Shown: positions 40,501 through 44,895 of the stretch, piece by piece
Position numbering within the stretch: position 1 is the stretch's first letter
Layout: each line of letters starts with the position of its first letter
From: Pseudomonadota bacterium
GTDB lineage: Bacteria > Pseudomonadota > Alphaproteobacteria > UBA828
Direction of reading: 5' to 3'
Assembly (NCBI GenBank): GCA_027624955.1
Contig: JAQBTG010000032.1
Location: forward strand, 1-45,172
DNA length: 45,172 bases
Program-made: the position numbers and the translations under genes
Notes under the pieces: generated by a model
What the model saw: the letters and a program-made list of their open reading frames with translations, nothing else
What the model was told of the DNA's origin: nothing
Databases searched by the model: none

Positions 40501-41733
40501 ATGGAACTGTGTGACCTCGGCGATCATCCGCCGCTAACTGAAATTCCGAAAAAAATGCATGCCTTCGTTGTTCGCCAAGATCGGTTCGGCGAACCTGAAG
40601 ACGCGTGGCAGCGTGAGATTATCGACACGCCCGAGATCGGGCCTTTGGATGTACTGGTTTACGTCATGGCGACGGGAATCAATTACAACAATGTGTGGGC
40701 CGCGCTTGGCAAACCGGTCGATGTCATCGCTGACCGCCAGAAGAAGGGCGAGCCGGAAGACTTTCACGCCGGCGGCAGCGATTGTTCAGGCATTGTCTGG
40801 GCAATTGGCGAGCAAGTCACAAATGTAAAACCCGGCGATGAAGTTGTCGTGCATAGTGGATGGTGGGAGCCGGATGATCCTTGGGTGCTGTCGGGCAAAG
40901 ATCCGATGCTCGCCGAGAGCACGCGTATTTGGGGCTATCAGACCAATTACGGCAGTTACTGTCAGTTCGCCCGCGCCCAATCCCATCAATGCCAACCGAA
41001 ACCGAAACATCTGACCTGGGAAGCGGCAGGCAGCTACTTGCTGTGCGCCTCAACGGCCTACCGCATGCTCATGGGGTGGCAGCCGAACATCGTCGAGAAA
41101 GATGATTATGTCCTGGTGTGGGGCGCCGCAGGTGGGCTGGGCAGCATGGCGCTGCAAATTGTCGCAGCGCATGGCGGCAAACCAGTCGCCGTTGTCTCCG
41201 ATGACGCCAAGCGGCAATTCTGCCTCGACCATGGCGCCGTCGGCGTCATCAATCGCAATGACTTCTCCCATTGGGGAACGATGCCTGACACCAACAGCCC
41301 GGAATGGGGGGTGTGGTTCAAAGGCGCGCGTGAATTCGGCAAGGCGTTTTGGGAAGCTGCCGGCGGCAAAGTGAGTCCGAGCATTGTGTTTGAACATTCC
41401 GGCGAAGCGACCCTACCAACCTCGGGTTTTCTTTGCGGCACCGGCGGCATGATCGTCATTTGCGCCGGCACCAGCGGCTACAATGTAACGCTGGACCTGC
41501 GCTATCACTGGATGCGCCAAAAACGCTTCCAGGGCAGCCATCTATCGAATGACCCGCAGGCGAAAGCAGTGAACCAGCTCGTCATCGACGGCAAAGTTGA
41601 CCCTTGTCTCTCGCAAACATTCACCTTCGACGAAATCGGCAAAGCTCATCAGCTCATGCATGAGAATCGTCACCCCTACGGCAACATGGCGGCCTTGGTG
41701 AATGCGACAGCGCTCGGCCAAGGGGCGTCCTAG
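40501..41733 (+). CDS. Crotonyl-CoA carboxylase/reductase family enoyl reductase, altered CO2 pocket
   Basis: The 410-residue MDR-type protein follows crotonyl-CoA carboxylase/reductase (CCR) along its whole length: [98 protein letters not shown] and [17 protein letters not shown] reduces crotonyl-CoA with NADPH while adding CO2. Four residues of the Kitasatospora enzyme (Asn81, Phe170, Glu171, His365) line the CO2 site. The counterparts here are an Asn of NYN, Tyr146, Gln147 and His299, so the key Glu is a Gln. Other ethylmalonyl-CoA pathway genes are absent from this window. It may be a plain enoyl-thioester reductase or use another acyl-CoA. Confidence 0.87.
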
Positions 41734-41795: not shown

Positions 41796-42791
41796 ATGAC
41801 GGTAACCGCGGTGACGAATAAGGATCTGCACGATGACGCGTTGATAATCGATGGCCTGGTGATTTCAAAATGGAGCCGGAACGTATTTGTAGATATGCGC
41901 AAGGGTGGGCTCACGGCGGCCAATTGCACCTGCTCCGTCTGGGAAGGCATCCGCGGGTCGCTCGACAATGTCGCCGAATGGATGCGCATGTTCACGGCCC
42001 ATGACGATCTGATTCTACAGGTCAGAACCACCGAAGACATCACCCGCGCCAAGCAAGAGGCTAAGACCGGCATCATTCTCGGCTGGCAGAACACCAGCGG
42101 GATCGAGGATCGCATCGAATATCTGGCGGTCTTCAAGCAGCTCGGCGTCAACGTCATGCAGCTCACCTACAACACGCAGAATTTTGTCGGCTCCGGATGT
42201 TATGAAAGCGTCGATAGCGGGTTGTCGGATTTTGGCCGCGATGTCGTCGATGAAATGAACCGCCTCGGCATCCTTGTCGACCTATCCCATGTCGGACCCA
42301 AAACCAGTGACGAAGCTATCCGCCATTCCAAAAAACCGGTGGCCTATTCCCATTGCTTGCCGTCCGGCCTGAAGGAGCACCAACGCAACAAATCGGATGA
42401 GCAGTTGCAGTTCATCTCCGATCGCGGCGGCTTTATCGGCGTCACTATGTTTCCATCATTTCTCCGGCGCGGCACTGATTCAACGGTCGACGATTATGTC
42501 GAGGCGATGGACTACGTGATTAATCTGGTCGGTGAAGACTGCGTCGGCTTCGGCACCGATTTCACCCAGGATCAGGACCAGGCGTTTTTCGACTCGCTCA
42601 TGCACGACAAGGGCGACGGCCGCGAGCTAACCGTCTTTGGTGAGATCGTCAATCCGCTCGGCATGCGCACCATCGGCGATTACCCCAACCTAACGAACGC
42701 AATGTTGCGCCAGGGTTGGCCCGAGGTGAAAGTGCGAAAAATTATGGGCGAGAACTGGCTTCGAGTGCTGAAAGAAGTTTGGGGCGCCTGA
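41796..42791 (+). CDS. Membrane dipeptidase-like (M19 family) protein lacking part of the metal site
   Basis: The 331 residues match the M19 renal-dipeptidase fold: IIDG at residue 17, ILGWQNTSGIEDRIEYLAVF, LGVNVMQLTYNTQNFVGSGC, LSDFGRDVVDEMNRLGILVD, LSHVGPKTSDEA and PVAYSHCLP, GFGTDFTQ. Classical enzymes bind two zinc ions with HxD near the N-terminus, a bridging Glu and two His. Here His165 and His186 remain. The HxD position reads LVI (residues 21-23) and the Glu position is Gln98. So it is probably a one-metal or altered enzyme rather than a normal dipeptidase. M19 proteins of this kind occur beside dimethylglycine-demethylase genes in Pseudomonas (from memory), and a related flavoprotein gene lies next door here. 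AAGGAT precedes the ATG. Confidence 0.85.
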   Translation: MTVTAVTNKDLHDDALIIDGLVISKWSRNVFVDMRKGGLTAANCTCSVWEGIRGSLDNVAEWMRMFTAHDDLILQVRTTEDITRAKQEAKTGIILGWQNTSGIEDRIEYLAVFKQLGVNVMQLTYNTQNFVGSGCYESVDSGLSDFGRDVVDEMNRLGILVDLSHVGPKTSDEAIRHSKKPVAYSHCLPSGLKEHQRNKSDEQLQFISDRGGFIGVTMFPSFLRRGTDSTVDDYVEAMDYVINLVGEDCVGFGTDFTQDQDQAFFDSLMHDKGDGRELTVFGEIVNPLGMRTIGDYPNLTNAMLRQGWPEVKVRKIMGENWLRVLKEVWGA

Positions 42792-42813: not shown

Positions 42814-44895
42814 TTACTCCGCCGCAGCGCTTTCGAGGCGGACTTGTTCGAGCTTGTAGGGCACGTCGCCGGCCGCTGCGGCGTCGAGCTCCTGGGCGTA
42901 GCGATGGCCTTCAAAGACGGCGAACTGGATCGTGCTCGGCGCGACGACGTCGCCGATACGCGTCAGTTTGGTGATACCCGCCGCTTCCAATTTTTCTGGA
43001 TTCGCCGACAATTCCTTATAGAGCGCGTCATTCGGCAGCCGCGACGCCGCCAAGACGAGCGACTGATAGCTCAAATTCTCACGGATCGCGCCATGATAGA
43101 CGTTGGCGATTTCAATGCTGTTATCGCCGATCGAAACAATATTGTGATCCTTAATCATCCGAATGCCCTGAGATAGAATCCTGCTCTGAATTTTCTCCAT
43201 TTCAAGGGTGTATTCGGTCCACCGCGAAAGCTCCATCAGCGGCGTTACGATGGTCACCTCATGGCCTTCAGCGCGCAGTTTTTCGGCGATCACGCCGCCC
43301 ATATAATAGTGATCGTCATCGAACACGATGACCGGCCCTTCGACCTTCTTGCCGTTCATGATGTCATCCGGGGTAAAGACCCGGCTGCCGTCACTTCCCG
43401 GAATCGCATGCGCGTTGCTATAGGAAACACCGTCCCGCCGCCAGCTTGCGCCGGTGGCGAGGACGACAATCTCGGCGCCATAGTCGAGAATATCTTGGGC
43501 CGTAAGTTCAGTGCCCGTGTGCACTTCGACATTCTTCATCTTGGCGAGCTGAGCCTTGCGGTAGTCGCGCACTCGGGCCCATTCGGACAGGCCGGGAAGG
43601 CTGCTTTCAAACGTCACCCGCCCGCCAACTTCGTCGCGTGCATCCACCAGATGCACGGTATAGCCACGCAAGCCCAGCGCGCGTGCGCACTCAAGGCCGG
43701 CCGGACCGGCACCGACGATCAGCACGCCATTGTCCGAGCCTTTCTTGGCGATGGTTTCCGGGTGCCAGCCGCGTCGCCATTCCTCGCCCGCGGTCGGGTT
43801 TTGCGTGCAGCGGAACAGGCTGGATGTATTCTCCGATGACACGCAAATATTGCAGCCGATGCATTCGCGAATATCTTCATTGCGCCCCTCCTCAATTTTC
43901 TTGGGCAGGAACGGATCGGCGATGGACGGCCGCGCCGCGCCAATCATATCTGTGATGCCGCGCTCGATCTGCGAGACCATGGTGTCTGGCGACGTGAAGC
44001 GCCCGACAGTCACCACAGGTTTGTCGGTCTTTTGCTTGACGAAGGCGATGTAGGGCTCTTGAAACCCTTCTTTGCTAAAGCGCGCGGTCGCCGAATCTTC
44101 GGCCCAATCGCTGATGTTCACATCCCAGAGATCGGGAAGATCGGCAAACATCTCGACCACCGCCTGGCCTTCTTCCTGCCATTGAATGCCATCTGCGCCG
44201 CGCATCTCGTCGACCGCGATGCGAAGCGCCACGGCGGCCTTGTCGCCGACCGCTTCCTTAGTGTCCTCCAACAGCTCGCCAATGAGGCGCGCGCGATTCT
44301 CGACGCTGCCGCCATATTCATCCGTGCGATGGTTGCTATGCGGCGACAGGAAACTTTGCGGCAGGGCGATATTATGGCCAGCATAGACATAGACGATGTC
44401 AAAGCCGCATTCGACGGCGCGCAAGGAGGCGTCTACCTGCCAACGACGGAATTCTCGGATGTCTGCCTTGTCCATCTCGCGCCCCTGGATCGGGTCCCAG
44501 TTATAGTGGACCGTACTGCTCGACGGGCTGAGCGGATATTCCTTGGTCTTGCGGTTGGAGAAGCCGGAACCGTTATGTGTAAGTTCGACCGCCGCTAGGG
44601 CGCCATATTCGTGCACGGCGTCCGCCCATTCGCGCAACTGGGTCACGTGATCCTCGTTCCACAGGCGCCGTTCCCCATAAGGCGCGGCACAGGAGCTCGG
44701 GTGGATGGAACATTGCTCGGTCGAGATAACCGCCCACCCGCCTTCGCCTTTCATGCGCCGATGGGCGATGTCGCCATGATGCTCGGTATACCCCATGGCG
44801 TTGCAATGGGGCACTTGAAAGAACCGATTTTTCGCTGTTTTGGGACCAATCTTGAGCGGCGTAAAAAGCACATCATAGCGCGGATCGCGGGCCAT
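42814..44895 (-). CDS. Trimethylamine dehydrogenase-like / dimethylglycine demethylase-like flavoprotein
   Basis: The 693-residue protein has three parts: an N-terminal old-yellow-enzyme barrel with FMN, a 4Fe-4S site (Cys345, Cys348, Cys351, Cys363) and a C-terminal FAD/ADP-binding domain (VLIVGAGPAGLECARALGLR). Cys31 (QVPHCNAMG) matches the cysteine that forms the 6-S-cysteinyl-FMN bond in TMADH. The catalytic Tyr/His region (VYVYAGHNIALP) is kept. Of the aromatic bowl that holds trimethylammonium, Tyr60 is Gln61 and Trp355 is Glu355, while Trp264 is kept. The substrate is therefore likely a secondary or functionalised amine, as in dimethylamine dehydrogenase or DgcA-type enzymes. It converges with the M19-like gene, with 22 bases between stops. 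Confidence 0.9.
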   Translation of the reverse strand: MARDPRYDVLFTPLKIGPKTAKNRFFQVPHCNAMGYTEHHGDIAHRRMKGEGGWAVISTEQCSIHPSSCAAPYGERRLWNEDHVTQLREWADAVHEYGALAAVELTHNGSGFSNRKTKEYPLSPSSSTVHYNWDPIQGREMDKADIREFRRWQVDASLRAVECGFDIVYVYAGHNIALPQSFLSPHSNHRTDEYGGSVENRARLIGELLEDTKEAVGDKAAVALRIAVDEMRGADGIQWQEEGQAVVEMFADLPDLWDVNISDWAEDSATARFSKEGFQEPYIAFVKQKTDKPVVTVGRFTSPDTMVSQIERGITDMIGAARPSIADPFLPKKIEEGRNEDIRECIGCNICVSSENTSSLFRCTQNPTAGEEWRRGWHPETIAKKGSDNGVLIVGAGPAGLECARALGLRGYTVHLVDARDEVGGRVTFESSLPGLSEWARVRDYRKAQLAKMKNVEVHTGTELTAQDILDYGAEIVVLATGASWRRDGVSYSNAHAIPGSDGSRVFTPDDIMNGKKVEGPVIVFDDDHYYMGGVIAEKLRAEGHEVTIVTPLMELSRWTEYTLEMEKIQSRILSQGIRMIKDHNIVSIGDNSIEIANVYHGAIRENLSYQSLVLAASRLPNDALYKELSANPEKLEAAGITKLTRIGDVVAPSTIQFAVFEGHRYAQELDAAAAGDVPYKLEQVRLESAAAE

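Follow-up and report, generated by a model that had tools for sequence, protein, structure and literature searches.

A conserved branch of the peptidase M19 family with a depleted metal site and a possible role in N-methylglycine metabolism

The window, by which we mean the whole stretch of 45,172 nucleotides analysed here, encodes a protein of the peptidase M19 fold in which the metal-ligand motif HxD is lost and the metal-bridging glutamate is replaced by glutamine (Table 1). The same combination is found in 47 of 91 M19 proteins from the class to which the window belongs. Judged from these residues, a conventional di-zinc dipeptidase mechanism is very unlikely, because the ligands of the first metal and the bridging glutamate are gone from the window protein and from the examined relatives of its clade. 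Of several possible explanations, we favour an enzyme of N-methylglycine metabolism that works with a reduced or rebuilt site, a reading to which we give an even chance.

Table 1. Features of the M19 gene, its active-site positions and its neighbours (positions are those of the window).
Feature	Position	Strand	Basis
Crotonyl-CoA carboxylase/reductase-family gene	40501..41733	+	TIGR01751, 535.9 bits vs 378.55
M19-fold (renal-dipeptidase-like) protein, ligand-depleted subfamily	41796..42791	+	ORF, Pfam, model, fold search
Leu21-Val22-Ile23, replacing the HxD metal-ligand motif (strand 1)	41856..41864	+	Translation, alignment
Gln98, replacing the metal-bridging Glu	42087..42089	+	Class-sample alignment
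Tyr125, replacing the catalytic/substrate His	42168..42170	+	Class-sample alignment
Glu137 and Asp140, class-specific acidic residues in the loop after strand 4, candidate substitutes	42204..42215	+	Class-sample alignment
His165, kept strand-5 metal-ligand position	42288..42290	+	47/47 no-H/Gln proteins
His186, kept strand-6 metal-ligand position	42351..42353	+	47/47 no-H/Gln proteins
Arg197, kept substrate-carboxylate position	42384..42386	+	47/47 no-H/Gln proteins
Asp255, kept strand-8 catalytic Asp position	42558..42560	+	47/47 no-H/Gln proteins
Histamine/trimethylamine-dehydrogenase-like flavoprotein, convergent to the M19 gene	42814..44895	-	PDB and DgcA comparison

According to ORF call and translation, the reading frame starts with ATG, codes for 331 amino acids and has no internal stops. 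Its product matches the PF01244 Peptidase_M19 profile with 293 bits (E 3.3e-87, cut-off 26), the match starting at residue 30, C-terminal to Leu21-Ile23. Profile and fold (Z 40.1 to renal dipeptidase, 1itq) both place the protein in this homology family, while NCBIfam profiles gave no match at E values up to 0.001. The gene is not a decayed copy, because dN/dS (NG86) is 0.08 against the relative L037 and 0.15 against L148, at a dS of about 0.95 that is near saturation.

Residues 19-24 read D-G-L-V-I-S, where the canonical M19 sequence is D-x-H-x-D. Two hallmarks of the M19 zinc dipeptidases, the HxD on strand 1 and the bridging glutamate on strand 3, are thus absent, with L-V-I at 21-23 and Gln98 in their places, and the histidines of strands 5 and 6 and the aspartate of strand 8 are present. 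The initial annotation had described exactly this (no HxD, no bridging glutamate, later histidines kept), and we confirm it for this very reading frame. In renal dipeptidase we take the equivalents of Leu21-Ile23, Gln98, His165, His186 and Asp255 to be H20/D22, E125, H198, H219 and D288, and those of Tyr125 and Arg197 to be H152 and R230. The histidine at the Tyr125 position of M19 dipeptidases stabilises the reaction intermediate.

With the window protein and 44 relatives as input, AlphaFold2 gave a model with a mean pLDDT of 90.9 and a pTM of 0.90. In the model, Leu21-Ile23 are at the end of strand 18-22 and Gln98 just after strand 91-97, with His165, His186 and Asp255 following strands 160-162, 182-184 and 250-253, respectively. 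The replaced residues are thus predicted to occupy the strand ends which bear the ligands in renal dipeptidase. The best fold match was 2i5g_A (Z 55.1, rmsd 0.9, 325 residues aligned, 61% identity), an “amidohydrolase” of Pseudomonas aeruginosa released in 2006, which we take to be PA5396. It has L-I-I at the HxD position and GFQN at the bridging glutamate, and it keeps both histidines, the arginine and the aspartate, as does the window protein; both acidic equivalents are also present, as its chain positions E132/D134 align to Glu137/Asp140. The other M19 structures followed at Z 36.9 to 40.5. Renal, bacterial and fungal dipeptidases among them (1ITQ, 3ID7/Sco3058, 3LY0 and 5LWZ GliJ; Z 37.8 to 40.2) have the same TIM-barrel and share the positions of the two later histidines, the arginine and the aspartate, whereas the window protein differs in lacking HxD and the bridging glutamate, in having Tyr125 for histidine, and in the class-specific Glu137/Asp140. 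PvdM (3B40, Z 39.6) and human DPEP3 (6VGO, Z 38.4), which we liken to the window protein by fold alone, are M19 folds that are not known to have ordinary dipeptidase activity.

A PF01244 search of 142 genomes of the window's class, which we take to be the Alphaproteobacteria because a relative of the same genus is a Rhodospirillaceae genome, gave 97 matches in 55 genomes, and 91 of these, including two from the window genome, were collected (six lower-scoring matches were left out: G098:C188, G098:C76, G074:C52, G043:C2, G113:C42 and G081:C32). When read position by position, 47 of the 91 proteins lack the HxD histidine and have glutamine at the bridging position (no-H/Gln), 27 are HxD/Glu, 12 have the histidine and the glutamate without the aspartate, and one lacks the histidine with the glutamate kept. 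Three more (L160, L164 and L165; clade support 100) keep HxD and have glutamine both at the bridging glutamate and at the strand-5 histidine, and the last (L133) has the glutamate and an unreadable N-terminus. The HxD histidine is therefore absent in 48 proteins, 47 of which have Gln98; among the other 43, Gln98 occurs in three and glutamate in 40. As the sequences are related, a p-value for this association is no independent test; going by the counts, we consider the pairing of Gln98 with the loss of the histidine to be more than chance.

The remaining positions differ in a consistent manner between the two main groups. His165, His186, Arg197, Asp255 and Asp162 are invariant in all 47 no-H/Gln proteins, and position 125 is tyrosine in 46 of them but histidine in 24 of the 27 HxD/Glu proteins. 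Glu137 is present in 45 and Asp140 in 43 of the 47, while at position 137 the states listed for 23 of the 27 HxD/Glu proteins include no glutamate, and two of the 27 have aspartate at 140; the alignment is less certain in this loop. Glu137 and Asp140 thus accompany the ligand loss, perhaps as replacements. Another acidic residue, Glu50, is glutamate in only 33 of the 47. A pattern search for named relatives gave at least 591 stretches, at least 587 of them confirmed, and the best 80 of these were used for comparison. All 80 have Leu21, with isoleucine (78) or valine (2) at position 23, and all have His165, His186, Arg197 and Asp255; Gln98 is likewise found in 80 of 80, although the search pattern itself favours it. 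We read these data as an active site reorganised and kept by selection, not as decay.

The tree (109 rows, trait columns removed, quick search, with long branches for L169, L197 and L118) places all 78 ligand-depleted rows on one side of a branch with support 88. This bears out the earlier proposal that the same residues mark a subfamily. On this tree the change from HxD counts as a single event, against four changes between the Glu and Gln states. A single origin for all proteins without the histidine is rejected, though weakly (p-AU 0.033), as the group also takes in 12 proteins which have the histidine and the glutamate but no aspartate; the final steps in the loss may thus have recurred. 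In these 12 (L136, L140, L142, L143, L163, L166, L167, L172, L175, L180, L185 and L210; clade support 99) the aspartate has become cysteine (8) or glycine (4), and from its residues the clade looks like an intermediate. The window protein itself lies in a clade of 24 rows (support 99) together with rows from Pseudomonas, Burkholderia, Enterovibrio and Vogesella; by signature and clade it belongs to the M19-like subfamily of 2I5G and the dgc cluster, 2i5g being absent from the quick tree. It had been expected that the GWQNTSG version would form a clade of its own. This does not hold, as GWQN and GFQN members are mixed within the window's clade and GWQN occurs also in a separate one (L187, L188, L191 and L203). 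D-G-L-x-[IV] plus G-[FW]-Q-N would appear to mark the window's clade better.

What the subfamily may do is suggested by the gene context of its orthologues in other bacteria. Of the best 80 among at least 587 confirmed loci, 60 have dgcA nearby and 66 a gene for DUF5943, a protein that carries a V4R domain; soxA/soxB-like genes occur in 12 and hydantoinase genes in three of these fetched flanks, a few of the sox and hydantoinase matches being weak (e.g. 29% in L040). In all 66, the DUF5943 gene comes after the M19 gene in the same orientation, with 5 to 252 bases between the matched ends. Restricted to the 74 of these loci with at least 3 kb of downstream sequence, the counts are 60 for dgcA, 65 for DUF5943 and 67 for any of dgcA, sox or hydantoinase. 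Pseudomonas contributes 20 of the 80, and the counts lean on it; counted by named genus, dgcA is found in 17 of 23, DUF5943 in 22 of 23, and dgcA or sox in 21 of 23. The reference genes were identified by NCBIfam cut-offs, which SoxA and SoxB exceeded, by DUF3483 for DgcB, and by the FMN oxidoreductase domain for DgcA. In the dgcAB cluster the M19 gene is followed by DUF5943, dgcA, dgcB and two more genes, an arrangement that is absent in the window. We take these two to be etf, a label that agrees with the fixAB names used in the Vibrio natriegens report cited below. The “dipeptidase” or pepD of this cluster in Pseudomonas, Halomonas, Burkholderia and others is orthologous to the window protein, with about 61 to 65% identity and the same signature. 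The linkage of many orthologues to dgcA and DUF5943 supports a role in the catabolism of N-methylglycines.

In its own lineage, the window gene is found in other surroundings. The crotonyl-CoA carboxylase/reductase-family gene shares the strand of the M19 gene and ends 62 bases before it; no such gene was found beside the orthologue in 11 related loci. The convergent flavoprotein, past which the window extends for 277 bases, has histamine dehydrogenase (3k30, E 4e-220) as its best PDB match, followed by trimethylamine dehydrogenase (1djn, 4e-175). We rejected it as a DgcA orthologue, as it is only about 27% identical to the DgcA of dgc operons. A co-occurrence with TMADH/DgcA-like genes, which the initial annotation had put forward as a check, was not borne out by this neighbour, given its convergent orientation and its distance from DgcA; nor was it found in the flanks of the 11 orthologue loci, several of them on contigs that end near the gene. 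A 52% identical homologue, encoded at L224:4350-8583 (G134 C65), has another ligand-depleted M19 gene at a distance of about 1.2 kb.

The 11 orthologue loci from related genomes (L147-L157; L147 and L149 are the same loci as L037 and L039) contain neither dgcA nor DUF5943 nor sox genes, several of their contigs ending close to the M19 gene; a tested neighbour, a pair of hydantoinase genes, is present in one, L149. In L148 and L157 the M19 gene is adjoined by a divergent molybdopterin oxidoreductase (domain checked for L148). Upstream of the M19 gene of the closest relative (L147:728-3176), a molybdenum subunit of the xanthine-dehydrogenase type is encoded as two adjacent ORFs (MoCoBD_1 and MoCoBD_2), either a natural split or a frameshift. 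Within the class sample, two of seven other members of the window's clade (L149 and L225) have a neighbour of the tested kind. The linkage to DUF5943 and dgcAB that characterises the 2I5G/dgc-cluster subfamily is missing in the window, the two DUF5943 genes of its genome being on other contigs (C13 and C55). DUF5943 was detected in only three of 60 related genomes, the window's own included, so that an obligate pairing with the M19 protein is unsupported in this lineage.

Nor was an N-methylglycine context supported for the ligand-depleted branch as a whole. Such neighbours were found in 9 of 42 ligand-depleted vs 2 of 20 canonical loci, a difference that is not significant (Fisher p 0.48). 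The 42 loci are 40 fetched ones plus L149 and L158, from 45 no-H/Gln members outside the window genome (the remaining three, L171, L181 and L211, have contigs of 6 to 8 kb and were not included, whereas L220 and L252, with shorter contigs, were); the 20 were drawn from the 27 HxD/Glu loci. The window genome also has four open frames with an aminomethyltransferase domain (828 to 1019 aa) and one MttB-family protein, all on other contigs, and nine DgcA matches (best 36% identical), all but the convergent neighbour again on other contigs. The earlier suggestion of a possible reaction on N-methylated amino acids finds support in orthologues of several other genera, which are linked to dimethylglycine and sarcosine genes, but the window's own lineage shows the linkage in 1 of 11 loci.

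Taken with the residue pattern, these contexts lead us to the following model. In a large, conserved M19 branch the HxD ligands of the first metal have been lost and the bridging glutamate has changed to glutamine. The retained half-site of His165, His186 and Asp255, with Gln98 and perhaps Glu137/Asp140, would hold one metal or none, and Arg197 would bind a small amino acid by its carboxylate; the substrate would most probably be an N-methylated glycine, or one of its adducts arising during the demethylation of glycine betaine, dimethylglycine and sarcosine. The altered residues and their conservation, the fold, the grouping and the linkage of many orthologues are observed, whereas we infer that the window protein is still catalytic, that it holds one metal or none, and what kind of substrate it has; the hint at the last comes only from the gene linkage of orthologues outside its lineage. 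Against this model stand the scarcity of the linkage among the window's relatives (1 of 11 loci, several contigs being short, and two of seven other clade members in the class sample), the detection of DUF5943 in only three of 60 genomes, the non-significant comparison across the ligand-depleted loci and the lean of the named counts towards Pseudomonas. The loss of two ligands together with the change of glutamate to glutamine could equally mean that catalysis was lost. A wider version, which we put forward tentatively and think possible rather than probable, is that all 47 of the 91 sampled proteins form an enzyme class with an undescribed reaction and a site rebuilt from Gln98, His165, His186 and Asp255 with the class-specific Glu137/Asp140 and Tyr125, the window's clade acting on N-methylated amino acids or their formaldehyde adducts in catabolism of the betaine type, and annotation naming them dipeptidases.

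If catalysis was lost, the protein could be a scaffold, a chaperone or a ligand-sensing subunit that works together with DUF5943-V4R and DgcAB. The equivalents of H20, D22, E125 and H152 are replaced in the 47 no-H/Gln proteins (the last in 46, the first three partly by definition of the class), and DUF5943 follows the gene in the 66 loci described above; a pure scaffold would not, however, require the invariance of His165, His186, Arg197 and Asp255 in 47 of 47 proteins, and the proposed partner is missing from most related genomes. We regard this explanation as unlikely. Less probable still is a metal hydrolase of the ordinary type in which Glu137 and/or Asp140 (or Glu50) replace the lost ligands, so that amides or peptides are hydrolysed with one or two metals. 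The specificity of these two acidic residues for the no-H/Gln class and the retention of both histidines and the aspartate are in its favour, as is the example of E. coli NagA, which belongs to the same superfamily, has a depleted first site and holds one metal (1ymy, a more remote fold match at Z 16.7). Against it, Glu50 is poorly conserved, and the histidine that stabilises the intermediate is replaced by tyrosine (Tyr125) in 46 of 47. A decaying pseudogene or a sequencing artefact, for which the lost ligands might speak, is rejected as highly improbable given the intact reading frame, the low dN/dS, the matching substitutions in the crystal structure 2i5g, and Leu21 and Gln98 in all of the best 80 of at least 587 named relatives.

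The statement of the initial annotation that a canonical di-zinc mechanism appears impossible goes too far. Such a mechanism is very unlikely with the ligands lost, but “impossible” is too strong because His165, His186 and Asp255 together with Glu137 and Asp140 could form a different site.

The window protein is not new in kind, as its subfamily has a crystal structure from 2006 and operon genes in print. In the sections available to us, two reports record a “dipeptidase” gene in the dgc cluster (PMC12093977, on Vibrio natriegens and with the fixAB naming, and PMC8079746), where it is named pepD or membrane dipeptidase and its function is unstated. The part seen of a third lists the dipeptidase PP_0308, presumably an orthologue of the window M19 protein, near dgcA/dgcB in its table of the RoxR regulon (PMC10963909). 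The word “peptidase” was not found in the accessible portion of a study of betaine catabolism (PMC3691474). The literature under open licence, with few subscription journals and no supplements, contained no mention of PA5396, 2I5G or DUF5943, no paper pairing “peptidase M19” with dimethylglycine, and no statement of metal-ligand loss in this M19 branch or of its function. As far as these sources go, “dipeptidase”, “pepD” and “membrane dipeptidase” are the names in use for genes of this ligand-depleted kind, among them the neighbour of the dimethylglycine demethylase genes in Pseudomonas. Should the residue pattern mean what it appears to mean, a large number of genes are misnamed, and an osmolyte pathway that has otherwise been well studied contains a conserved member to which no function has been assigned. 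Since a solved structure exists (2I5G), the question can be tested directly.

Two further loci deserve mention. The window genome has a second ligand-depleted M19 gene on contig C13 (protein L002, no HxD and glutamine; L033:5179-6198), which adjoins a gene for DUF5943-V4R; a DAO oxidoreductase and hydantoinases A/B are encoded nearby. The cluster (L033:3418-11682) also includes an MmgE/PrpD-like gene, named by eye, and is possibly of an N-methylhydantoin or creatinine type. In a search for shared neighbours across 46 ligand-depleted loci, the M19 gene was followed on the same strand by a partner gene in 14, which belong to a sister clade marked by “LQY...GFQN”. The partner in one of them (L159:6254-7924, minus strand) codes for a protein of 557 aa with no Pfam or PDB match at E values up to 1. 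Upstream in L159 lie genes for a methyltransferase of the MttB family and, in divergent orientation, for a DAO-GCV_T protein of the dimethylglycine-dehydrogenase type.
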